From: Rhizomicrobium sp.
GTDB lineage: Bacteria > Pseudomonadota > Alphaproteobacteria > Micropepsales > Micropepsaceae
Assembly: GCA_037200985.1 (NCBI GenBank)
Contig: JBBCGJ010000001.1
Coordinates: 1,154,756-1,218,755, forward strand
DNA length: 64,000 nt
Direction of reading: 5' to 3'
Shown: positions 5,954 to 37,936 of the stretch, one piece after another
Position numbering within the stretch: position 1 is the stretch's first letter
How the letters are laid out: every line of letters begins with the position of its first letter
Program-made: the position numbers and the translations under genes
Notes under the pieces: model-generated
What the model saw: only the letters and a program-made list of their open reading frames with translations
What the model was told of the DNA's origin: nothing
The model's database searches: none

Positions 5954-8629
5954 ATGGCAAAGTGGGTCTATTCGTTCGGTAACGGCACCGCTGAGGGGGA
6001 GGCCGGGATGCGGAACCTGCTCGGCGGCAAGGGCGCCAACCTCGCCGAGATGAGCAATCTGGGGCTTCCCGTCCCGCCCGGTTTTTCGATCACCACCGAG
6101 GTCTGCACCTATTACTACGCCCATGGCGAGAGCTATCCGGCCGACCTGAAGCCGGAGGTCGAGGCGGCGCTGGCGCGCGTCGGCGATCTGGCGGGCGGCC
6201 GGCTCGGCGATCCGGCGCGGCCGCTGCTGGTCTCGGTCCGCTCGGGCGCGCGGGTTTCGATGCCCGGCATGATGGACACGGTGCTCAATCTCGGCCTCAA
6301 CGCCGAAACGACCGAAGGGCTGGCCCGCATCACCGGCGACGCGCGTTTCGCCTACGATTCCTATCGCCGTTTCATCCAGATGTATTCCGATGTCGTGCTC
6401 GGCGTCGAGCATTCGGTGTTCGAGGAAATCCTGGACAGCGAGAAGGAGGATCGGGGGTTCGAGCTCGACACCGAATTGTCCGCCGAGGATCTCAAGAAGA
6501 TCGCCGGCCTGTTCAAGGCCCGTGTCGCCAAGACGCTGGGTCGGCCGTTCCCGGAAGACGTGCATGAGCAGCTCTGGGGCGCGATCGGCGCGGTGTTCGG
6601 CTCCTGGCAGAGCCCGCGCGCCAACACCTATCGCCGCATCCACAACATCCCGGAGGACTGGGGAACGGCGGTGACGGTGCAGGCGATGGTGTTCGGCAAT
6701 CGCGGCGAGACCTCGGCCACCGGCGTCGCCTTCACGCGCGACCCCTCCACGGGTGAAAAACTCCTCTACGGCGAGTTCCTGATCAACGCCCAGGGCGAGG
6801 ACGTCGTCGCCGGCATCCGCACGCCGCAGTCGATCTCGAAGGTGGTGCGCGAGCGCCAAGGCGCCAAACGGCTCTCGATGGAAGAGGCGATGCCGAAGGC
6901 CTTCGCCGAGCTGAAGGCGATCTGCGACCGGCTGGAGACCCACTATCGCGACATGCAGGACCTCGAATTTACCGTGCAGGAAGGCACGCTCTTCATGCTC
7001 CAGACCCGCGGCGGCAAGCGCACCGCGGAAGCCGCGCTCAAGATCGCAGTCGACATGGAGCGCGAAGGCCTGATCGACAAGCACGCCGCGGTGGCGCGTG
7101 TCGATCCGTCGGCGCTGGACCAGCTACTGCATCCGACGCTCGATCCCAACTCCCCGCGCGAGCAGATCGCGGCCGGCCTGGCGGCGTCGCCGGGAGCGGC
7201 CACCGGCGAGGCCGTGTTCACCGCCGACGAGGCGGAGAAGCTCGCGGCCGAGAACCGCGACGTCATCCTGGTGCGCACCGAGACGAGCCCCGAGGACATC
7301 CACGGCATGCATGCGGCGCGGGGCATCCTCACCGCGCGCGGCGGCATGACGAGCCATGCCGCCGTGGTGGCGCGCGGCATGGGGCGGCCCTGCGTCTCCG
7401 GCGCGGGCGCGATCAAGATCGACGTCGCGGGCGGCGTGATGGTCTGCGGCCGCCACACGGTGAGGCGCGGCGACATCATCACGATCGACGGCAGCAGCGG
7501 CACCGTGTTCAAGGGCCGGGTCGAGCTGCGCCAGCCCGAGCTCACCGGCGATTTCGGCGTGCTGATGGGCTGGGCGGATTCGATCCGTACCCTGAAGGTC
7601 CGCACCAATGCCGACACGCCGGAGGACGCCGCGACGGCGCGGAAGTTTGGAGCCGAAGGCATAGGATTGTGCCGCACCGAGCACATGTTCTTCGACTCCG
7701 ATCGCATCGTCGCGGTGCGCCAGATGATCCTGGCCGACGCGAAGGCCGACCGCGAGGCGGCGCTGGCCAAATTGCTGCCGATGCAGCGCCAGGATTTCGA
7801 GGGCATCTTCAAGGCGATGGAAGGGCTTCCCGTCACCATCCGCCTGCTCGATCCGCCGCTGCACGAATTTTTGCCGCAGAAGGACGAGGAGATCGCCGAG
7901 GTGGCGCGCGCCGCCGGCAGCGATCCCGGCAAGCTGCGCGCCCGCGCCATCGCGCTGCACGAATCCAATCCGATGCTCGGCCATCGCGGCGTGCGCCTCG
8001 GCATCACCTATCCCGAGATCTACGAGATGCAGGTGCGCGCCATACTGGAGGCGGCGCTGAACGTACGGGATGCGGGCGGGGCGCCGGTGCAGCTCGAGAT
8101 CATGGTGCCGCTGGTGGCGTTCAAGACCGAGCTCGACCGCATCAAGGAGCGCATCGACGCGGTGGCCGCCGCGGTGGCGTCCGAGCGCGGAAAATCGCCG
8201 GATTACATGGTTGGAACGATGATCGAGCTGCCGCGCGCCGCTCTGCGCGCGAAGGAGATCGCGGAGAGCGCGGAATTCTTCTCCTTTGGCACCAACGATC
8301 TGACGCAGACGACCATCGGAATCAGCCGCGACGACGCCGGCGGCTTCCTCACGGAGTATCTCAACAAGGGCGTGATCGCGCGCGATCCCTTCGTGAGCAT
8401 CGACGTCGACGGCGTCGGCGAGCTCGTGCGCATCGCAGCGGAGCGGGGACGCGCTGCACGCGCGAACCTCAAGCTCGGCATCTGCGGCGAGCATGGCGGC
8501 GATCCGGATTCGATCCGATTCTGCCACGACTGCGGGTTGGATTACGTGTCGTGCTCGCCGTTCCGCGTGCCCGTCGCGCGTCTCGCCGCGGCGCAGGCGG
8601 CGCTCGCAAACCGCAAGTCCGACGATTGA
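5954..8629 (+). CDS. ppdK: pyruvate, phosphate dikinase
   Basis: Interconverts pyruvate + ATP + Pi and PEP + AMP + PPi in the cytoplasm. The 891-residue length is normal. Seen in order: an N-terminal ATP-grasp domain beginning KWVYSFGNG with GGKGANLAEM, the swivelling phosphohistidine domain with GGMTSHAAVVARG (catalytic His about residue 468), and the C-terminal PEP-binding TIM barrel with GLCRTEHMF and GICGEHGGDP containing the active-site Cys. It stands alone between repeat-rich spacers, so it is probably monocistronic. Confidence 0.97.
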   Translation: MAKWVYSFGNGTAEGEAGMRNLLGGKGANLAEMSNLGLPVPPGFSITTEVCTYYYAHGESYPADLKPEVEAALARVGDLAGGRLGDPARPLLVSVRSGARVSMPGMMDTVLNLGLNAETTEGLARITGDARFAYDSYRRFIQMYSDVVLGVEHSVFEEILDSEKEDRGFELDTELSAEDLKKIAGLFKARVAKTLGRPFPEDVHEQLWGAIGAVFGSWQSPRANTYRRIHNIPEDWGTAVTVQAMVFGNRGETSATGVAFTRDPSTGEKLLYGEFLINAQGEDVVAGIRTPQSISKVVRERQGAKRLSMEEAMPKAFAELKAICDRLETHYRDMQDLEFTVQEGTLFMLQTRGGKRTAEAALKIAVDMEREGLIDKHAAVARVDPSALDQLLHPTLDPNSPREQIAAGLAASPGAATGEAVFTADEAEKLAAENRDVILVRTETSPEDIHGMHAARGILTARGGMTSHAAVVARGMGRPCVSGAGAIKIDVAGGVMVCGRHTVRRGDIITIDGSSGTVFKGRVELRQPELTGDFGVLMGWADSIRTLKVRTNADTPEDAATARKFGAEGIGLCRTEHMFFDSDRIVAVRQMILADAKADREAALAKLLPMQRQDFEGIFKAMEGLPVTIRLLDPPLHEFLPQKDEEIAEVARAAGSDPGKLRARAIALHESNPMLGHRGVRLGITYPEIYEMQVRAILEAALNVRDAGGAPVQLEIMVPLVAFKTELDRIKERIDAVAAAVASERGKSPDYMVGTMIELPRAALRAKEIAESAEFFSFGTNDLTQTTIGISRDDAGGFLTEYLNKGVIARDPFVSIDVDGVGELVRIAAERGRAARANLKLGICGEHGGDPDSIRFCHDCGLDYVSCSPFRVPVARLAAAQAALANRKSDD

Positions 8630-30436: not shown

Positions 30437-30466
30437 TTCACGCGGAGCCGCGGAAAACGCGGAGTT
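30437..30466. repeat. outer inverted repeat, left copy
   Basis: TTCACGCGGAGCCGCGGA followed by AAACGCGGAGTT. The reverse complement recurs at 37906-37936 with about two differences, outside the transposon. It is chromosomal and predates the insertion. Confidence 0.65.
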
Positions 30467-30506
30467 CTGGCGTGGTTTGTTTTGAGTCGATCATCATAAG
30501 AAGGTC

Positions 30507-30584
30507 GTCATTGCCCGGCTTGTCCGGGCAACCCATTTTTCTCGCCGCCAAATTGGGTCGCCCGCATGAAGCGGGCGATGACGG
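30507..30584. repeat. GTCAT/ATGAC palindromic repeat near the transposon
   Basis: CGTCATTGCCCGGCTTGTCC at the left end and CGGGCGATGACG at the right, with inner hairpins CCCGG..CCGGG and GCCCGC..GCGGGC. It lies 30 bases before the transposon insertion site. Confidence 0.75.
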
Positions 30585-30606
30585 TTTTATTTTCAAGCAA
30601 GTGATC

Positions 30607-30614
30607 TGAACCTC
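30607..30614. repeat. left 8-bp target-site duplication
   Basis: TGAACCTC immediately before the left terminal repeat. The identical octamer is at 37904-37911 immediately after the right terminal repeat. Confidence 0.9.
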
Positions 30615-30639
30615 CGCCATTATGGCGCAAACACACCTT
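30615..30639. repeat. left terminal inverted repeat (25 bp)
   Basis: Starts CGCCATTATGGCG and continues CAAACACACCTT. The outer 13 bases are themselves a palindrome. It is an exact reverse complement of the right end. Confidence 0.93.
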
Positions 30640-30681
30640 ACGCTCCTAGGTTCCTGAAACGTTCGGCGCTATTTAGTTGGA

Positions 30682-31068
30682 ATGGCCGAACGTCACGTCA
30701 TCACCGCATTAACCGCAAAACGTAAGCAGATCGAACGGCTGGTCCGGCTACTTACGAAGAAATTGCAGGTAGCAAACGCTGAACTGGAAGCTATCGAAGC
30801 CGCATTTCGCATCTTCAAGGCCGACATCGCTCTATCTGCGCCGCCAACAAGCCGTCCGGCGTTTGGAATATCTAAAGGTGATTCTTTGCGGGCCGTATTT
30901 CGGGTTCTCCGCGCAGCACCTAAGCCTCTTAACACGTGGCATCTCACCGAACTCCTCATGCGGGAGCGCGGATTACCGCCAGACGACACAAAGCTCTACC
31001 GCACCATGGAACAGCGTTTGCGCGCATCACTGAATTACTATCGGCGGACGAAAGGTGTTCTCAAATAG
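30682..31068 (+). CDS. coiled-coil plus winged-helix-like accessory protein
   Basis: 128 residues: an N-terminal helical, coiled-coil-like region with a repeating heptad look (KRKQIERLVRLLTKKL, ELEAIEAAFRIF), then a compact C-terminal domain SLRAVFRVLRAAPKPLNTWH with a predicted winged helix. The same architecture is seen at 36583-37239, with alignable blocks KG..R.V...LR.A..PL and ELEAIEAA/LSAIETV. I recall this as a common uncharacterised alphaproteobacterial family. First gene inside the transposon. Confidence 0.7.
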   Translation: MAERHVITALTAKRKQIERLVRLLTKKLQVANAELEAIEAAFRIFKADIALSAPPTSRPAFGISKGDSLRAVFRVLRAAPKPLNTWHLTELLMRERGLPPDDTKLYRTMEQRLRASLNYYRRTKGVLK

Positions 31069-31153
31069 TCGCGAGGGCCTGACGGACTGGTAGTATGGGA
31101 AATAGCGCCACGCTAGAACGAGAATGGTTGCGGGACAATGTCGGTACGCGGAA

Positions 31154-31621
31154 CTAAGGCTTGATCCGAAGGTACATTTCGAAAACGTCCCATGCGATGA
31201 AGAAGATCGCCCCGATGATGAGGAAATAGAATTGCAAACGAGCGTAAGTGCTTGTCCGTTTCGAGTTTGATTCGATTGCATCGCGAATGCCGCCGCCAGC
31301 GGCTTCCATCATCTGCGGATGACTCCCGACTTTGGGATGTCGTCCACTTTCAACCTTGAGAAGCTCGAAATTCGCAAACAGGGTTGAATCAACGTACCGC
31401 AGATTCATACACCCAGAAAAGAAGCTAAAGCCCCAACACAACACGGCAGTCCCGAGCGGAATCTGAGAAAGAGACAGAACCATGTCCTGACTTCTTGTCA
31501 CTGCGAAAGCGATGGCGGCACCGGCAGCCGCGAGCATAAAATAGGTGTAGCGTTCTTGGGAGGCGCGTTGGGTTCGATACAGTTCAATTTCCATGTCGCT
31601 GGACATGTGCGCCGCTTTCAT
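31154..31621 (-). CDS. small membrane protein, three hydrophobic segments
   Basis: 155 residues with hydrophobic helices at about 26-40 (YFMLAAAGAAIAFAV), 54-69 (IPLGTAVLCWGFSFF) and 131-146 (FYFLIIGAIFFIAW), with a ~60-residue soluble stretch before the last. The start may be the ATG at 31621 or 31606; neither has a strong ribosome site. No family was recognised; the layout of two close helices plus a soluble part is seen in several effector families, but I do not claim membership. Confidence 0.6.
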   Translation of the reverse strand: MKAAHMSSDMEIELYRTQRASQERYTYFMLAAAGAAIAFAVTRSQDMVLSLSQIPLGTAVLCWGFSFFSGCMNLRYVDSTLFANFELLKVESGRHPKVGSHPQMMEAAGGGIRDAIESNSKRTSTYARLQFYFLIIGAIFFIAWDVFEMYLRIKP

Positions 31622-31728
31622 ATTTGGGCTGTAGATGATGTTGGGCGGACGCTATTTCGGTTTGCGTCCACTCGAAAGCGGGTTCGGCAATTTATCCACG
31701 GCTCATGCGCTTTGAACCGACGTTCCGT

Positions 31729-31932
31729 CTATTGAAGCAGGTCCAACGGCTTCACGCCCAGCACCTTCGCGAACTTCTCAACGACTTCCAGAGTCGGATT
31801 GCGCAGGCCGCGCTCGATCTGCCCGACATAGGTGACGGCAAGATCAACCTCGTCTGCCAACACCTCCTGACTTAACCCGCGCTCTTTGCGGATTCGCCGG
31901 ACATTGATCCCAAGGACTCGCGCCAGTCGCAT
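31729..31932 (-). CDS. XRE-family helix-turn-helix regulator
   Basis: 67 residues, almost entirely a Cro/CI-type HTH: RRIRKERGLSQEVLADEVDL, then YVGQIERGLRNPTLEVVEKFAKVLG. It is likely a local repressor. It is divergent from the membrane protein at 32008 with a 75-base gap that would hold both promoters. Confidence 0.85.
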   Translation of the reverse strand: MRLARVLGINVRRIRKERGLSQEVLADEVDLAVTYVGQIERGLRNPTLEVVEKFAKVLGVKPLDLLQ

Positions 31933-32007
31933 AGGCGAAGGCGGAACGATTTGTTAAGGCCACACCAGTCACTATAGTGATGACTTTTGGTTGTAAGCGA
32001 GCCGGAC

Positions 32008-32496
32008 ATGATCCGCTGGTCGTTCGTCTGGAAAGGGGCCCTCATTGGCGCGGCGCTCTATGTGCCGTTGATCATATTCGTCAGGCTGAACTCTCAGCCA
32101 TCGCCGCAGTCTTCTTCCGAGCGTCACAGCTTCGGCATCGATCCCCGGAATACCGAACTGCACTCAGACAATATCAGACGGATGCCGGGCGACATATTGG
32201 GGTCTCGGCTGTACCTCTCAATTTACAGCGCAAACAGCATTGTCGGGCTGAAAATTCGGGATGGCGTGGTCGCTTGCGGCGTTGGCGAGGATATAGAGGT
32301 TCAGTTCGATGATGGCCCTGTGGAGGTCTACACCTGCCATCAGGAGCGAGAGGCGGAAGTAACGTTGTCGGATGGACCAGCGATCCTCGACAACGCCGAG
32401 CAGTTCATTGCGGGGATAAGAAAGGCGTCATCCGTGACGATCAGCCCGTTGCTCATGGGCAAAGGTCGCGCCGACTTTCATTTTACGGCGCGCTAG
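32008..32496 (+). CDS. hypothetical protein with N-terminal membrane anchor
   Basis: 162 residues. The N-terminal helix (about residues 5-25, FVWKGALIGAALYVPLIIFV) anchors it, leaving a periplasmic domain with a conserved-looking region VEVYTCHQER and a C-terminal SVTISPLLMGKGRADFHF. ATG at 32008 is chosen; a TTG at 31987 is also open. The stop overlaps the 3' end of the next minus-strand gene by 14 bases. Function unknown. Confidence 0.6.
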   Translation: MIRWSFVWKGALIGAALYVPLIIFVRLNSQPSPQSSSERHSFGIDPRNTELHSDNIRRMPGDILGSRLYLSIYSANSIVGLKIRDGVVACGVGEDIEVQFDDGPVEVYTCHQEREAEVTLSDGPAILDNAEQFIAGIRKASSVTISPLLMGKGRADFHFTAR

Positions 32497-32893
32497 AGGG
32501 CGAACACCATGCTTCCGGATTACGGCGGCGAATTGTGTGAAATGAATCTTCGTTCCCGCTGTGTGGCAGAAACTTGAAGCTCCGCCGTTCACTCTCGATG
32601 CCTAGTGGCGTTATGTCGAAAATTGTGCCGTCCGGACGCCGCACGATGGAATGAGCCACGATCTTCCACATCCAGAATTGGTCATGTTCCTGTAACAGCC
32701 AGCCCCGAACTGAATCGCAATCCGGATTGTCCGAGACATATTTATCGGCATTGTCGTGGCAGTGTGCGACCTCCGGCTTCGATCCGTCATGGAATATTAC
32801 ATTCGGATCAAACGAAACGGAGACCGCTTGCAGGCGAGATTTGAGGAGGTCCTGAAAGAACTCCTCGTCTGAAGGAAGCACACCACAACGCAT
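32483..32893 (-). CDS. hypothetical protein with a CHDN/AHS/D motif set
   Basis: 136 residues. The pattern CHDNADKYV, then VRGWL, then WKIVAHSIVRRPDGTIFDITP recalls a family of small accessory proteins with conserved Cys/His-Asn, His and Asp positions, which could be an active site. I cannot name the family. Last gene of the minus-strand cargo operon; it overlaps tail to tail with the gene at 32008. Confidence 0.6.
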   Translation of the reverse strand: MRCGVLPSDEEFFQDLLKSRLQAVSVSFDPNVIFHDGSKPEVAHCHDNADKYVSDNPDCDSVRGWLLQEHDQFWMWKIVAHSIVRRPDGTIFDITPLGIESERRSFKFLPHSGNEDSFHTIRRRNPEAWCSPSSAP

Positions 32894-32917
32894 CTCAAGC
32901 GTCCCAATTTGATCAGG

Positions 32918-33250
32918 CTAAACGAAGCGGATGAAGAACAAATACGCTCCGGCCAGCAAGCTCACGCTCGCCAAGATCGACAGTATCCCGTCCCAGCGCG
33001 TTCTAATCGCGCTCGCAACAGCAGCTAGAATGAGACCCGACACAAACCAAATCGCCAAGCCAGTGAGCCAGCCTTCGGCCGCTACCGATGCGTAAATAGC
33101 AGCAAAACCGGCGAGGATACCGCCTAAGATCAGAGGCACGCTCAAAATCTGCGACACTTGGGATATGTTCTCATAGCCCGCTCGACGGACCATCGTGCCT
33201 GTGACGGCGGCGAAGTTCAGAAGTAACGCGGGCAATATTATATCGATCAT
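32918..33250 (-). CDS. small four-helix membrane protein
   Basis: 110 residues with about four hydrophobic helices (LPALLLNFAAVTG, VPLILGGILAGFAAIY, LTGLAIWFVSGLILAAV, ILASVSLLAGAYLFF). The ATG at 33250 is preferred over 33271, as GGGACGG sits just upstream. Unknown function; part of the minus-strand operon. Confidence 0.6.
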   Translation of the reverse strand: MIDIILPALLLNFAAVTGTMVRRAGYENISQVSQILSVPLILGGILAGFAAIYASVAAEGWLTGLAIWFVSGLILAAVASAIRTRWDGILSILASVSLLAGAYLFFIRFV

Positions 33251-33518
33251 TTCCGTCCCGCCCATTCGCATAACGTCCCGAGCCTATCAGAAATGCCAGC
33301 CACCAGAGGCATGTGCGTTGATTCATCTAAGGTCATTGCGTGTACGCTAGTGCGCCAAATTCTTGACTTTTCCGATAGGTGTGATAGTGATTTTCATGCG
33401 ATGAATCGCGCGGCGCGCATCTCGCATCTCAAACACCAATACGGAGATTCAGTTGGCTGACGCAGTCGATGCGCCAATGACGCATCTATCCGGCATACGA
33501 GAGATCGGTGCCGAATCG

Positions 33519-34292
33519 TCACAGGACGCTCGAAATGCTCCTAATGAACTCAACGACAAGCTCGCGCGCTTCCGCGAGCGTTTGCGTAGCCGTCTTACCT
33601 GCGCGAACCTTGATCCCCCGAAACACTACGTTGAGCGGGATGGCTTTGAAGTCATCATTCAGTTCGAGATTGTGGGGAGCAACGAGCAATACGAGGCACT
33701 GATTAGTCGGGTGCCAGTGCATGCTACCGATGCGAACTCCGCGCCGTGCCTTGAGCCGGGCCACAAGGTGTTCGCTGGGAACGGGCGCTACTTCGAGAAT
33801 CTGCTTCATGTGCCCTCCGGCAACGCTTCTGAGAATCCAGAATGGCTCGCCATCCCTTCCGCCGTGCGGATCAAGCGAGCGGATAAGTTCACCAACGTCC
33901 TCGGGAAATCTCGCTATTTCTCGTTGGAAACGAGCCGGTTCCTGTGGTCCCTTACCAAAAGACGCGGGGAACGCAGCACGCCCCTCACCGGGAAGTGCGA
34001 TGCGCTGCACGATGTCATCGAGAACGCCCCACAGTCCGACCATGATGGACTTGGCGTCGGCACTGAGGGTGCGGAGAGCAGCGTCAGTTTCTTCGTAAGC
34101 CCGGATTGGATTTCTGCGGACCACGAGATTTACCTGCTGATGGGCCGCATGAGGTTGTTTCTCGGCTTCCATCGAGAACGGTTTGAGTTTGAGGAAGGCA
34201 TTGACCGCCTTATCGAAGTTCGCGATGTCCATTTCGGCCCGCTCGGCTTTCCCGAGCGCGTCCAATAGGCAATCTTCGAGATCGATGTCCAT
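33519..34292 (-). CDS. uncharacterised accessory protein, related in layout to the next gene
   Basis: 257 residues. The N-terminal half (FDKAVNAFLKLKPFSM, then LWGVLDDIVQRIALP) resembles an accessory family with a HNLRSALDHL-like helix, in which here ..GLWGVLDDIV takes that place. PFWILRSVAGGH follows. The opposite strand also carries an open frame, but this strand fits better in context and in composition of the protein. 82 bases downstream of a probable paralogue at 34374. Confidence 0.6.
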   Translation of the reverse strand: MDIDLEDCLLDALGKAERAEMDIANFDKAVNAFLKLKPFSMEAEKQPHAAHQQVNLVVRRNPIRAYEETDAALRTLSADAKSIMVGLWGVLDDIVQRIALPGEGRAAFPASFGKGPQEPARFQREIARFPEDVGELIRSLDPHGGRDGEPFWILRSVAGGHMKQILEVAPVPSEHLVARLKARRGVRIGSMHWHPTNQCLVLLVAPHNLELNDDFKAIPLNVVFRGIKVRAGKTATQTLAEARELVVEFIRSISSVL

Positions 34293-34373
34293 GTCGGCGC
34301 TCTCGCAGGATTCGGCTTGGCCCCATGCGCCGAAGCTGCTTCGTAAAATGCCCTGATGCCGACTAATGTTCTC

Positions 34374-35090
34374 TTAAGGCGACCCCAAGAGCTTCTCAGC
34401 ATTCTCGACGACATCCCGCAAATGTGCCGACGTTGACGAGAAAATCGTCGTCGGATCGCAATTCGCCTTCGTTGCGATGCCTTCGATCCTGAACTGAATC
34501 AGCGTCAGCACGGGTTGTGCCGGATCGGCGTCAACCGCCTGAAATGTGAATTCATCGTTCTTGGTGAAATGGTCGCCGGGAATCTCGACGACGCTTTGGC
34601 TCTTGTCGGGTTTGAAGTAGGCAACCCCGCATGCGCTCGATGTCGTCGGCGACAAGCTCCAGTGCTTCGCACTATTGGAAAGCTGCTTCACGAGGATAAT
34701 GTGTGACAGCCACATCTTGTGCTTTTTTCTGGCGTCCGCGATGACGCCGCTGAATGCGGGACCGACGCGAACACCAATCGCCAGCATGCGTGTGGCAAAC
34801 TCACCGTCATCCTCGCAGAACGGGTAATAGAGGTTCGGCTTCTGCGCACCGCCATTCAGTTTCAAGCAAGCCGCCAGAGCTTGGTCATGCGCGTGGACAA
34901 GATTGTTTGCAACATCAGAGACAATGGGCTTTAGCCCGTTCAGTACTTCTCGGTCGATGCATAATCGGTAGTGAGGGCCTGAGTAATGAACCTTCCAAAC
35001 CGACTGCGTGGTTCGATTGTATTCAGCGACATGAGCCTGCGCCCTCGTCAGCAGCGCCTTTGCATCGACGAATGGATCAGGCTTTTGCAT
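34374..35090 (-). CDS. uncharacterised accessory protein
   Basis: 238 residues, predicted soluble. Contains VANNLVHAHDQALAACLKLNG, a helix reminiscent of the HNLRSALDH-type helix of the accessory family suggested for its neighbour, and later NSAKHWSLSPTTSS. The pair at 33519 and 34374 may be distant paralogues. It begins 18 bases after the DUF6471 gene, in the same operon. Function unknown. Confidence 0.6.
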   Translation of the reverse strand: MQKPDPFVDAKALLTRAQAHVAEYNRTTQSVWKVHYSGPHYRLCIDREVLNGLKPIVSDVANNLVHAHDQALAACLKLNGGAQKPNLYYPFCEDDGEFATRMLAIGVRVGPAFSGVIADARKKHKMWLSHIILVKQLSNSAKHWSLSPTTSSACGVAYFKPDKSQSVVEIPGDHFTKNDEFTFQAVDADPAQPVLTLIQFRIEGIATKANCDPTTIFSSTSAHLRDVVENAEKLLGSP

Positions 35091-35108
35091 CAGGATTTGT
35101 GCCGCCTG

Positions 35109-35366
35109 CTAGGCCAGGTCACGCAGATCAAGTGAAGCACAGCCCATCACCTTCAAACACATCAACAGGAACGCCGCCGAGAACTCACCCCGCGCTACCT
35201 TGTTCCGGAGGTTGCGCTCATTCTCATGGACGCCCGCTTTATCTAGTAACTCCGCAAGCTCCCCATAGCTGAGATCGCGCTTCGCCATCTCGACGCGGAT
35301 GATCCGGCGCGCCCAATCGTGAGCCTCGCTCGCCACCTCTTTATCGATCTCGATTTGCTTTGGCAT
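35109..35366 (-). CDS. DUF6471 HTH-like regulator
   Basis: 85 residues matching DUF6471: WARRIIRVEMAKRDLSYGEL, LLDKAGVHENERNLRNKVARGEF, then SAAFLLMCLKVMG. The arrangement is helix-turn-helix-like. It heads the minus-strand operon and faces the transposase gene across a 67-base gap with a palindrome, so it may regulate both itself and transposition. Confidence 0.75.
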   Translation of the reverse strand: MPKQIEIDKEVASEAHDWARRIIRVEMAKRDLSYGELAELLDKAGVHENERNLRNKVARGEFSAAFLLMCLKVMGCASLDLRDLA

Positions 35367-35382
35367 CGTTAACCTTAAGCCT

Positions 35383-35409
35383 ATCTATGGTGCATAATTC
35401 ATCATAGAT
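35383..35409. promoter_or_regulatory. operator candidate between DUF6471 and transposase
   Basis: ATCTATGGTG (35383-35392) and CATCATAGAT (35400-35409) form a 10-base inverted repeat with one mismatch and a 7-base spacer. A related half, CATCATCTACGATG, appears again near 35449. The site is in the divergent promoter gap. Confidence 0.55.
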
Positions 35410-35433
35410 GCTGCTTTTGTTTGATATACGTTC

Positions 35434-36459
35434 ATGTTTCGTGCTATAGCATCATCTACGATGCAAAAGCGCAGGCGGGCACGATCTCAGCATTTTCTTC
35501 TCTCGGCCAAGGCCCGGACCCTGAGTCTGATGGAGGTCGCCCGGATGTCGGATGACGACGCCTACAAACGGTTCCGGAGCGTGCGGTTCGCTCAGAATGA
35601 CGGCGAGCCATTCTGCTCTCTGTGCGGCTCTCTCGGGGTCTATGAGTTCGAGTGCCGCCACATTTTCAAGTGCAAGGGCTGTGGGAAGCAATTCTCGCTA
35701 ACGACCGGTACGATCTTCCACGGTCGCAAGATGGCCTATCGCGATCTCCTGATGGCGATTGCGGTGTTTGTGAATGGCGTAAACGGTCATGCCGCGCTCC
35801 GCCTCAGCCGCGATCTTTGCGTCTCCTAAAAGACGGCTTTCGTCCTCGCGCACAAGCTGCGGGAGGTGTTTGGCGCGCTCCAGACTCCGCACAAGCTCAC
35901 CGGCATTGTCGAGATCGACGGTATCGTGGTTGGCGGACACATAACGAAGGCCAATCAGAAGAAGGACCGGCGGGATCGGCGCAAGAACACGCTGAAGCGC
36001 CAAACAATTGTGAACATGCGAGAACGGCGTCCCGGTGGGCGCACAATTTCGTTTGTGTGCAAGAACGAAGCTGACGCACTGCCGGTCATCCTCGCGCACG
36101 TTGATAAAGCGGCCAAGGTTCGCACGGACGAGGGCGCGTCTTGGCAGATTTTCCCCGCGTATTTTACGGACTGGAAAGCTGTCAATCACTCCGTCGCTTA
36201 CATGATCGACGGAATTCATACCAATTGGGTTGAAGGCTTTCACTCGCGTATCCGGCGTGCGGAGCGCGGCATTCACTGCCGTATCTCAGGTCGGCATTTG
36301 CAGGGCTACGCTGATGAATTCGCGTGGCGCGAGGATCATCGCCGTATCGATAACGGCACGCAGTTCGCCATGCTGATGAAGGCGAGCGCGGGCCAGCCCA
36401 AGTCAGCGAAGTGGGGCGGATACTGGCAACGCCATTTGCCGAAGCCGGTGCCCGCATGA
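35434..36459 (+). pseudogene. IS1595-family transposase with in-frame stop
   Basis: The N-terminal zinc ribbon has FCSLCG and FKCKGCGKQFSLTTGTIF. The first part ends at TAA 35827-35829; the same frame resumes with KTAFVLAHKLREVF and carries the DDE-type core (VEIDGIVVGGH, RTDEGASW, HTNWVEGFHSRIRR) to the stop at 36457. The context TCC TAA AAG suggests a Tyr codon (TAC or TAT) turned to TAA in a conserved SYKTAF block. Length otherwise normal (~341 codons). Start ATG at 35434 or 35461. Confidence 0.88.
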
Positions 36460-36656
36460 TTATCGAGTTCAAGCGCGGCAAGCAGCGGTACGAGATCAAA
36501 CCACAGGGTTGCGTCTTCGTGGGTTATGTCGATGGCGTACCAACCATTATCGGAAAAAGAATCGAAGTCGTTACTCGTATGCTCATCGAGAAGCGTATGG
36601 GAGGTCGGACGATGGCTGAGATTGTCCCGTTTCCGAAGGAGCCTGCGGAGCGTTAG
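36456..36656 (+). CDS. small protein coupled to transposase
   Basis: 66 residues, IIEFKRGKQRYEIKPQG at the start and AEIVPFPKEP at the end. Its ATG overlaps the transposase stop (ATGA), suggesting translational coupling. It overlaps the 3' end of the minus-strand gene at 36583 by 74 bases. No family was recognised. Confidence 0.55.
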   Translation: MIIEFKRGKQRYEIKPQGCVFVGYVDGVPTIIGKRIEVVTRMLIEKRMGGRTMAEIVPFPKEPAER

Positions 36657-37239
36657 GTGGACGCTTCAAGCGCATCCGCGCTGCGGGGTTCGGTAGCACG
36701 ATGCCGATTTTTGCGTTCGGTTTGGATTGACGATTTCTTCCCGCCCTAGCTTGTTCTTTTGGAATCGCGACCCACCGCATCGGTTTATAGCTGACGACTT
36801 GAGCAGTTCGCCCTTCCCGACCCTTTAGCGTCAGGTGTATGTCACTTTCGATTCGTGAAATCTCTCGTTCGTCTGGCGGTTCAATTCTCAGCCGTGCCGC
36901 CACCATGCGAGCCAGTTCCCGTCGAGAAAGCGGAACCGTCGCGTCGCGAAGTATCGCATAGACAGTCCGACTGATCGCCCCCTTTGTTACATGCTGCTTG
37001 CGTGGGTAAGTCGGCCTGACTTTCGCCGGGTCCCAATCGGGATCGAAAAGCCAAATCACCGTTTCGATGGCCGAAAGCTTTTCATCGAGGTCCTTCTTAC
37101 GAAGATCGCAGCGGTTGGTCGCCTCAATGATTGCGTCAAGGCCAACGGCATCCTCGGTTAGCCGCTCGGCGAATTCATATTCACCGAGGAGTTTTGCGTA
37201 TTTCTTCGATAGGATGGAGACGACTAGCGGCACGGCCAT
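36583..37239 (-). CDS. coiled-coil plus winged-helix-like protein, paralogue of 30682
   Basis: 218 residues. Helical N-terminus with CDLRKKDLDEKLSAIETVIW and LFDPDWDP, then KGAISRTVYAILRDATVPLS, a winged-helix-like domain also found at 30682-31068. A basic, proline-rich tail of ~60 residues is extra. Sits at the other end of the transposon from its paralogue. The 3' end overlaps the small plus-strand gene, which adds doubt to the exact length. Confidence 0.65.
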   Translation of the reverse strand: MAVPLVVSILSKKYAKLLGEYEFAERLTEDAVGLDAIIEATNRCDLRKKDLDEKLSAIETVIWLFDPDWDPAKVRPTYPRKQHVTKGAISRTVYAILRDATVPLSRRELARMVAARLRIEPPDEREISRIESDIHLTLKGREGRTAQVVSYKPMRWVAIPKEQARAGRNRQSKPNAKIGIVLPNPAARMRLKRPPNAPQAPSETGQSQPSSDLPYASR

Positions 37240-37345
37240 ACGCTTAGAGTGCAGCGCCAGACGTTAAATCTAGGCAAGTAAAGTTGGTTAAGAGTCGGCG
37301 ACCGGATACAATGGGCAAGAATCGCGACGCGGACTGAGTATTCTA

Positions 37346-37867
37346 ATGAGCAACGACTGGATGCTTGGAGGCAGTCGCGAAGTGCGATCATGGCACGACC
37401 AGATGCAGGTGTGCTTGAACGGCCACCGCATTACTGCCAACGCGCTGGGATCGCCTGAATTCCGCGAAGATTTTTGTTCGCGCTGCGGCATGCGCACAAT
37501 CATGGCATGCGAAAAGTGCCGGACACCGATCCAAGGCGAATACCATGTGGAAAACGTATTTGCCGTGGGCATGAATACGCCCGTTCCCAAATATTGCACG
37601 AAGTGTGGCTCGCCCTATCCGTGGCAAGAAGCAGCCATAGAGAATCTGAAAGAGGCACTGCGCGAGGGCGGCTTAGACAGCGCCGACATTCAGGCGGCTG
37701 AGTTGGCCCTTCCGGACATCATGCACGACACGCCGAAAACTGAACTGGCATCGCTGAAGTTCGGGCGGATTCTCAAGAAACTTGGCAAACCGGTTTACGA
37801 GGTTGCGATCAAGGTCGTCACCGATGTGGCGTCGGAGGCCGCGAAGAAGGCGCTTGGTCTCGGCTAG
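37346..37867 (+). CDS. DUF2321 zinc-ribbon protein
   Basis: 173 residues. Four Cys-x2-Cys-like pairs in the first half: QVCLNGHRIT, FCSRCGMRTI, CEKCRTPIQG and YCTKCGSPYPW, matching DUF2321 (zinc-ribbon). The C-terminal half is helical and ends with a hydrophobic VYEVAIKVVTDVASEAAKKAL. Function of the family is unknown. Last gene of the transposon, 12 bases before the right terminal repeat. Confidence 0.8.
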   Translation: MSNDWMLGGSREVRSWHDQMQVCLNGHRITANALGSPEFREDFCSRCGMRTIMACEKCRTPIQGEYHVENVFAVGMNTPVPKYCTKCGSPYPWQEAAIENLKEALREGGLDSADIQAAELALPDIMHDTPKTELASLKFGRILKKLGKPVYEVAIKVVTDVASEAAKKALGLG

Positions 37868-37878
37868 GGTGTTTGCCC

Positions 37879-37903
37879 AAGGTGTGTTTGCGCCATAATG
37901 GCG
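37879..37903. repeat. right terminal inverted repeat (25 bp)
   Basis: Starts AAGGTGTGTTTGCG and ends CCATAATGGCG, exact reverse complement of the left end. A near copy of GTGTTTGC precedes it at 37869-37876. Confidence 0.93.
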
Positions 37904-37911
37904 TGAACCTC
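37904..37911. repeat. right 8-bp target-site duplication
   Basis: TGAACCTC directly after the right terminal repeat, identical to 30607-30614. Confidence 0.9.
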
Positions 37912-37936
37912 CGCGTTCTCCGCGGCTCCGCGTGAA
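37906..37936. repeat. outer inverted repeat, right copy
   Basis: AACCTCCGCGTTCTCCGCGG then CTCCGCGTGAA, the reverse complement of 30437-30466 with about two differences. It overlaps the right target duplication by 6 bases, so the target site lay at the edge of this older repeat. Confidence 0.65.

Follow-up and report, generated by a model that had tools for sequence, protein, structure and literature searches.

Transporter insertion sequences (tIS) of the IS1595 family, ISNha5 group, share a transposase with a zinc ribbon and a DDE domain, inverted ends, an 8-bp duplication and a regulator gene carried as passenger; ISNha5 itself counts as a transporter IS whose passenger is a transcription regulator (PMC11891212). 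Here we analyzed a stretch of 64,000 nucleotides from Rhizomicrobium sp. (assembly GCA_037200985.1, contig JBBCGJ010000001.1, positions 1,154,756 to 1,218,755; the window), in which an initial annotation had described a five-gene cargo operon headed by a DUF6471 regulator. The locus is probably a transporter-type IS in the IS1595 family, similar to ISNha5 and grown very large, and we hold its assignment as an IS1595 element with the core architecture of that kind to be very likely correct. Compared with the tIS of the ISNha5 group, it has unusually many passengers. Two of these, named below by their start coordinates (33519 and 34374), match a family without annotation that other IS1595 elements also carry.

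The element and its DUF6471 core

That the cargo lies inside a mobile element, as previously proposed, is borne out by inverted ends and a target duplication that delimit a single copy (Table 1). Its ends start with CGCCATTA, in contrast to the CGG of the sister elements described below, and a whole-genome search found no second occurrence of the end sequence in the 4.64-Mb genome. Guanine-plus-cytosine (GC) content is ~0.55 inside the element and ~0.66 outside. The transposase possesses zinc-ribbon and ISXO2-like DDE domains and matches NF033547 above the cut-off. Its two parts, on either side of an in-frame TAA, form open reading frames (ORFs) in one frame; because the gene is split in this way, the copy is probably unable to move by itself. 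As is characteristic of a transporter IS, many non-transposase ORFs lie between the ends, and the content varies among sister elements, the passengers being presumably dispensable for transposition. The cargo exceeds the five genes first described, as the ORFs starting at 30682, 31154, 31729, 31987, 36583 and 37346 belong to the same element.

To place DUF6471, whose identity in the initial annotation stands (Table 1), we surveyed 385 genomes of the class, 25 of which contain the domain (the window's own included), and compared the neighborhoods of 27 other DUF6471 matches. DUF6471 is divergent from an IS1595 transposase in 15 of these 27 loci by tblastn; L052 is a sixteenth such case by coordinates, its DUF6471 having been missed by tblastn. 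Between the aligned ends of the two genes lie 69–148 bp in 14 of the 15 loci; in the other, L050, a partial transposase is 8 bp from DUF6471. For nine sister elements, inverted ends and an exact 8-bp duplication mark the limits. They are 3.1–4.8 kb long and variable in content, with a core of transposase, divergent DUF6471 and a small coiled-coil/winged-helix-like protein that is usually located just inside one end and is found on the transposase side in all nine. The window element has two members of this protein family, which score 80.8 bits (30682-31068) and 39.7 bits (36583-37239; shuffled sequences at most 12.3) against the sister profile. DUF6471 belongs to the transposon core and not to the passengers, and its supposed place at the head of a cargo operon is not upheld by its divergent orientation to the transposase in 15–16 of the 27 loci. 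A regulator inside the element fits the passenger described for ISNha5 (PMC11891212).

In most elements, the interval between DUF6471 and the transposase holds repeats of the form CATCATAT-N-CGATGTA. Two operator-like repeats occur in the window, the better of which (35450-35465, two mismatches) was equalled in none of 200 shuffles. DUF6471, which from its sequence would be a helix-turn-helix (HTH) protein of the Cro/C1 type, is likely to act as the element's own Cro-type repressor.

Further observations concern DUF6471 and the sister elements. In two genomes of this genus, DUF6471 also occurs in longer open frames of 212–220 amino acids (aa) with no nearby transposase (G042:C47:46150-46335 and G018:C13:202968-203153). 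In L042, two element ends at 7451 and 15465 have the same orientation and are flanked by the reverse-complementary 8-mers CAGATCCG and CGGATCTG, which suggests an inversion. A 1.1-kb end-to-end remnant (L060 8109-9214) retains only a DUF6471 fragment between near-identical 8-bp flanks and is possibly a transposase-less derivative. With one near the left end and the other on the right, the window's two coiled-coil/winged-helix copies hint at a composite origin.

The GD-HNLR family as a recurrent passenger

Direct homologue searches with the products of 33519 and 34374 returned only noise in plasmids, phages, viral contigs and the genomes of the order (96), the class (385) and 85k species. A direct tblastn in a small set matched 33519 to L113 (E=7e-6). 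The layout of both proteins resembled a motif of hypothetical proteins, HNLR-[ST]-ALDH. It was solely through a scan for this motif and a follow-up scan that we found a family of viral and bacterial hypothetical proteins without annotation, here called GD-HNLR-ALD/DKH (GD-HNLR), which was then tested by profile. The scans gave some 20 distinct members on viral contigs; six of them, scanned against Pfam, showed no match above the cut-off. The profile of 20 members matches much of both window proteins, with 35.6 bits for 33519 and 22.8 bits for 34374, scores that none of 2,000 shuffles reached (maxima 5.1 and 7.4, respectively). With a profile of six members (A1), 34374 was the only match in a whole-genome scan. 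Since the profile scores lie above those of the shuffles, 33519 and 34374 are very probably remote, diverged paralogues of one family. The initial annotation is right in calling the two larger proteins soluble; they are not an unrelated pair.

In canonical members, G-D-x-x-H-N-L-R-x-A-L-D ... F-P ... D-K-H is invariant or almost invariant. By comparison, 34374 retains about half of the residues in these motif columns and 33519 hardly any. Both proteins keep the D of GD, the L, the D of ALD and the P, while HN/R and DKH are lost in 33519 and partly kept in 34374. The AlphaFold2 model of 33519 reached a predicted local distance difference test (pLDDT) of 76 and a predicted template modeling score (pTM) of 0.79; for a canonical member, the values were 81 and 0.79. 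Against the PDB, neither model had a match better than E=0.27, and sequence searches of the PDB were empty or at noise level. The 33519 model does match one unnamed viral protein model (E=4e-5). We also considered the HEPN superfamily of Rx4-6H ribonucleases, which the GD-HNLR proteins resemble in their long helices and in the R-x4-H spacing of many canonical members. This assignment was dropped, as the family does not conserve the His, both window proteins lack the Rx4-6H motif at the aligned position and no solved structure matched.

Members of the family lie inside three other complete IS1595 elements (L141, L112 and L124), all of which have inverted ends and an 8-bp duplication; in a truncated fourth case (L140), the family member adjoins an IS1595 transposase at the contig end. 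By their end sequences, which read GG ... TAT ... CTTGAC in L112 and L124, these belong to another IS1595 subgroup than the window element. IS1595 transposases are few in these genomes (0–4 copies), and the only one of G106 adjoins the family gene; given such low numbers, adjacency by chance is unlikely. IS1595 elements have captured the GD-HNLR family repeatedly.

This recurrence could also mean that GD-HNLR proteins are helpers of IS1595 transposition or of its control rather than host cargo, an explanation in keeping with their presence within elements from two or more IS1595 subgroups and with the L141 element, which consists of transposase, family gene and little else. We regard it as quite improbable, as no close relatives of the pair are present in the nine fully delimited sister elements with DUF6471 and as family members also occur with no nearby transposase (L138, L139 and most viral contigs).

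Transcription and possible function of the passengers

The five ORFs on which the initial annotation was built are real, lie where it put them and are all on the minus strand. Counted from 35109, they are separated by gaps of 18, 81, 247 and 24 bp, so that a single transcript is not assured: the 247-bp gap divides the genes into three plus two, and two transcription units are as likely as the one operon previously claimed. Consensus scans, which found one promoter-like site (1.9 expected) and six terminator-like sites (3.3 expected), decide nothing. A plus-strand ORF (33453-34268), the longer competitor of 33519, was rejected as a gene in view of the match between the minus-strand product and a conserved family. 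Scanning the five products against Pfam gave no match apart from DUF6471.

Beyond the gap, a membrane protein and a putative Cys-His enzyme seem to form a passenger pair of their own. For the former (117 aa), hydropathy bears out a multi-helix protein, with four to five hydrophobic segments, and no homologue was found. The latter (136 aa) has homologues of 29–37% identity on plasmids of Paraburkholderia, Rhizobium, Burkholderia and Caballeronia; its PHROG match is weak (phrog_6596, E=5e-5). The Cys/His-Asn, His, Asp pattern that had been noticed in it is real: an alignment of seven homologues shows no variation at C45-H46, R63-G64-W65, H81-S82 and T95, and the Asp preceding the T is Asn in one of them. 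A Cys-His-Asp hydrolase, papain- or transglutaminase-like, is a reasonable guess. A further match, which lies at the L048 end (E=0.038), is weak and was taken as chance.

Among the sister elements, passenger positions hold a Panacea protein beside a membrane protein in L043 (3884-4772; SocA/Panacea module), a PemK-like (PemK/MazF-like) toxin in L047 (6899-7300) and an M78 (ImmA/IrrE-like) metallopeptidase in L041 (6096-6650), whereas none of these domains is present among the window's five genes. The genes found in these slots make a toxin-antitoxin- or defence-like role of the window's passengers plausible. In its strongest form, this would be a single toxin-antitoxin or anti-phage operon under the control of DUF6471, with sensing or neutralisation by the soluble pair and an effector made up of membrane protein and Cys-His enzyme. 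Besides the sister slots, the 24-bp spacing of the last two genes and the plasmid homologues of the 136-aa protein speak for this arrangement. We nevertheless judge it unlikely: DUF6471 is a transposon core gene, the set is divided by the 247-bp gap, PADLOC returned no family at E<=10 and no known toxin domain was seen, and in the neighborhoods of the plasmid homologues the other window genes were not found beyond chance-level matches.

In a looser arrangement, which we hold to be a weak and less than likely inference, the GD-HNLR pair might confer a maintenance benefit on the element or host, toxin-antitoxin- or defence-like by analogy with the sister slots. In the regulatory scheme that we consider likely, DUF6471 would bind to the CATCATAT-N-CGATGTA repeats within the divergent promoter, repressing both the transposase and itself; 34374, directly behind DUF6471, and perhaps 33519 would be read from the same promoter, and passenger expression would thereby be coupled to the state of the element. 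One could go further and see in GD-HNLR an unrecognised effector family, recruited by IS1595 time and again. The pair, diverged in motif after an old duplication, would then join the membrane protein and the Cys-His enzyme in a new module for maintenance or defence, with expression linked to the repressor of the transposon; this we consider highly speculative and probably wrong.

Several points weigh against a DUF6471-regulated IS1595 element with the family as functional cargo. By tblastn, a transposase is missing from the vicinity of 11 of the 27 other DUF6471 loci, several of which are fragments or near a contig end. The Cro/C1-type assignment comes from reading the sequence, and the operator consensus was derived from the same sister elements, so the window repeat is support and not proof. 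In L138 and L139, the GD-HNLR member is solitary in the chromosome. Finally, the loss of conserved motif residues in both window proteins, together with the broken transposase, also fits decay.

Decay is a serious alternative, albeit a doubtful one on balance: the passengers would have no present function, and a dead element would be slowly losing its load. The premature stop and single copy of the transposon are in line with this, as are the motif residues lost in 33519 and, in part, in 34374, and the lack of close relatives in any collection searched. Yet the five ORFs all remain open, with normal lengths, and their GC content by codon position is coding-like. Distant homology spans most of 33519, and its reading frame has therefore been kept through great divergence.

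Further features of the element and wider meaning

The element is inserted in a host intergenic repeat (30437-30606 and 37912-37936), and its left flank recurs in the genome, with 48 matches, whole or partial. The outer 28-bp arms of this repeat mimic a second inverted repeat around the element (30437-30464/37909-37936), which was rejected as the element end. Among the remaining passengers, the XRE-type regulator has 87% identity to one of a same-genus genome (L054 2332-2532), which lies ~6 kb away from a DUF6471-containing ORF.

Table 1 Features of the IS1595-family element and of comparable elements. Positions refer to the window unless a locus is named.
Feature	Position	Strand	Extent or evidence
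Whole IS1595-family transporter element (probable), single copy	30615..37903	.	7,289 bp; terminal repeats, target duplication, transposase
Left target-site duplication, TGAACCTC	30607..30614	+	8 bp; direct repeat
Left terminal inverted repeat	30615..30639	+	25 bp; 25/25 match to right end
Protein 'a', coiled-coil + winged-helix-like, element core	30682..31068	+	80.8 bits, profile of nine sister elements
Membrane-protein passenger	31154..31621	-	hydropathy; no Pfam match
XRE-type HTH regulator passenger	31729..31932	-	NCBIfam HTH matches below curated cut-offs
Passenger ORF with single transmembrane segment, convergent with 32483 gene	31987..32496	+	ORF list, hydropathy
Protein with conserved CHxN ... 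RGW ... HS ... (D/N)xT, possible Cys-His-Asp hydrolase-type site	32483..32893	-	136 aa; plasmid homologues, alignment, phrog_6596
Membrane protein, four to five hydrophobic segments	32918..33271	-	117 aa; hydropathy
Diverged GD-HNLR family member (very probable), motif residues mostly lost	33519..34292	-	257 aa; 35.6 bits
Diverged GD-HNLR family member (very probable), motif partly kept	34374..35090	-	238 aa; 22.8 bits
DUF6471 regulator, core gene of element	35109..35366	-	85 aa; PF20075 E=1.8e-25
Operator-like repeat, weaker copy	35398..35413	-	4 mismatches to CATCATATNCGATGTA
Operator-like repeat between DUF6471 and transposase	35450..35465	+	2 mismatches to sister-element motif
IS1595-family transposase, in-frame TAA at 35827-35829	35434..36459	+	PF12760 E=2.2e-8, PF12762 E=4.2e-34
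Protein 'f', second copy of coiled-coil/winged-helix core family	36583..37239	-	39.7 bits
DUF2321 zinc-ribbon protein, right-end passenger	37346..37867	+	PF10083 E=1.1e-47
Right terminal inverted repeat	37879..37903	-	25 bp; 25/25 match to left end
Right target-site duplication, TGAACCTC	37904..37911	+	8 bp; direct repeat
Complete IS1595 element with GD-HNLR member	L141 5982-7970		2.0 kb
Complete IS1595 element with GD-HNLR member	L112 240-3892
Complete IS1595 element with GD-HNLR member	L124 925-3850

Taken as a whole, the locus is likely an element of a known kind, a transporter IS, to which our analysis adds a probable role for DUF6471 and a repeatedly captured family. For that family, which IS1595 elements have thus taken up more than once, we found no Pfam model or solved fold. 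A testable role, that of core repressor in a group of IS1595 transposons, can now be proposed for the uncharacterized domain DUF6471, and the passenger slot with its toxin-antitoxin-type genes, now identified, can be mined for new small modules.

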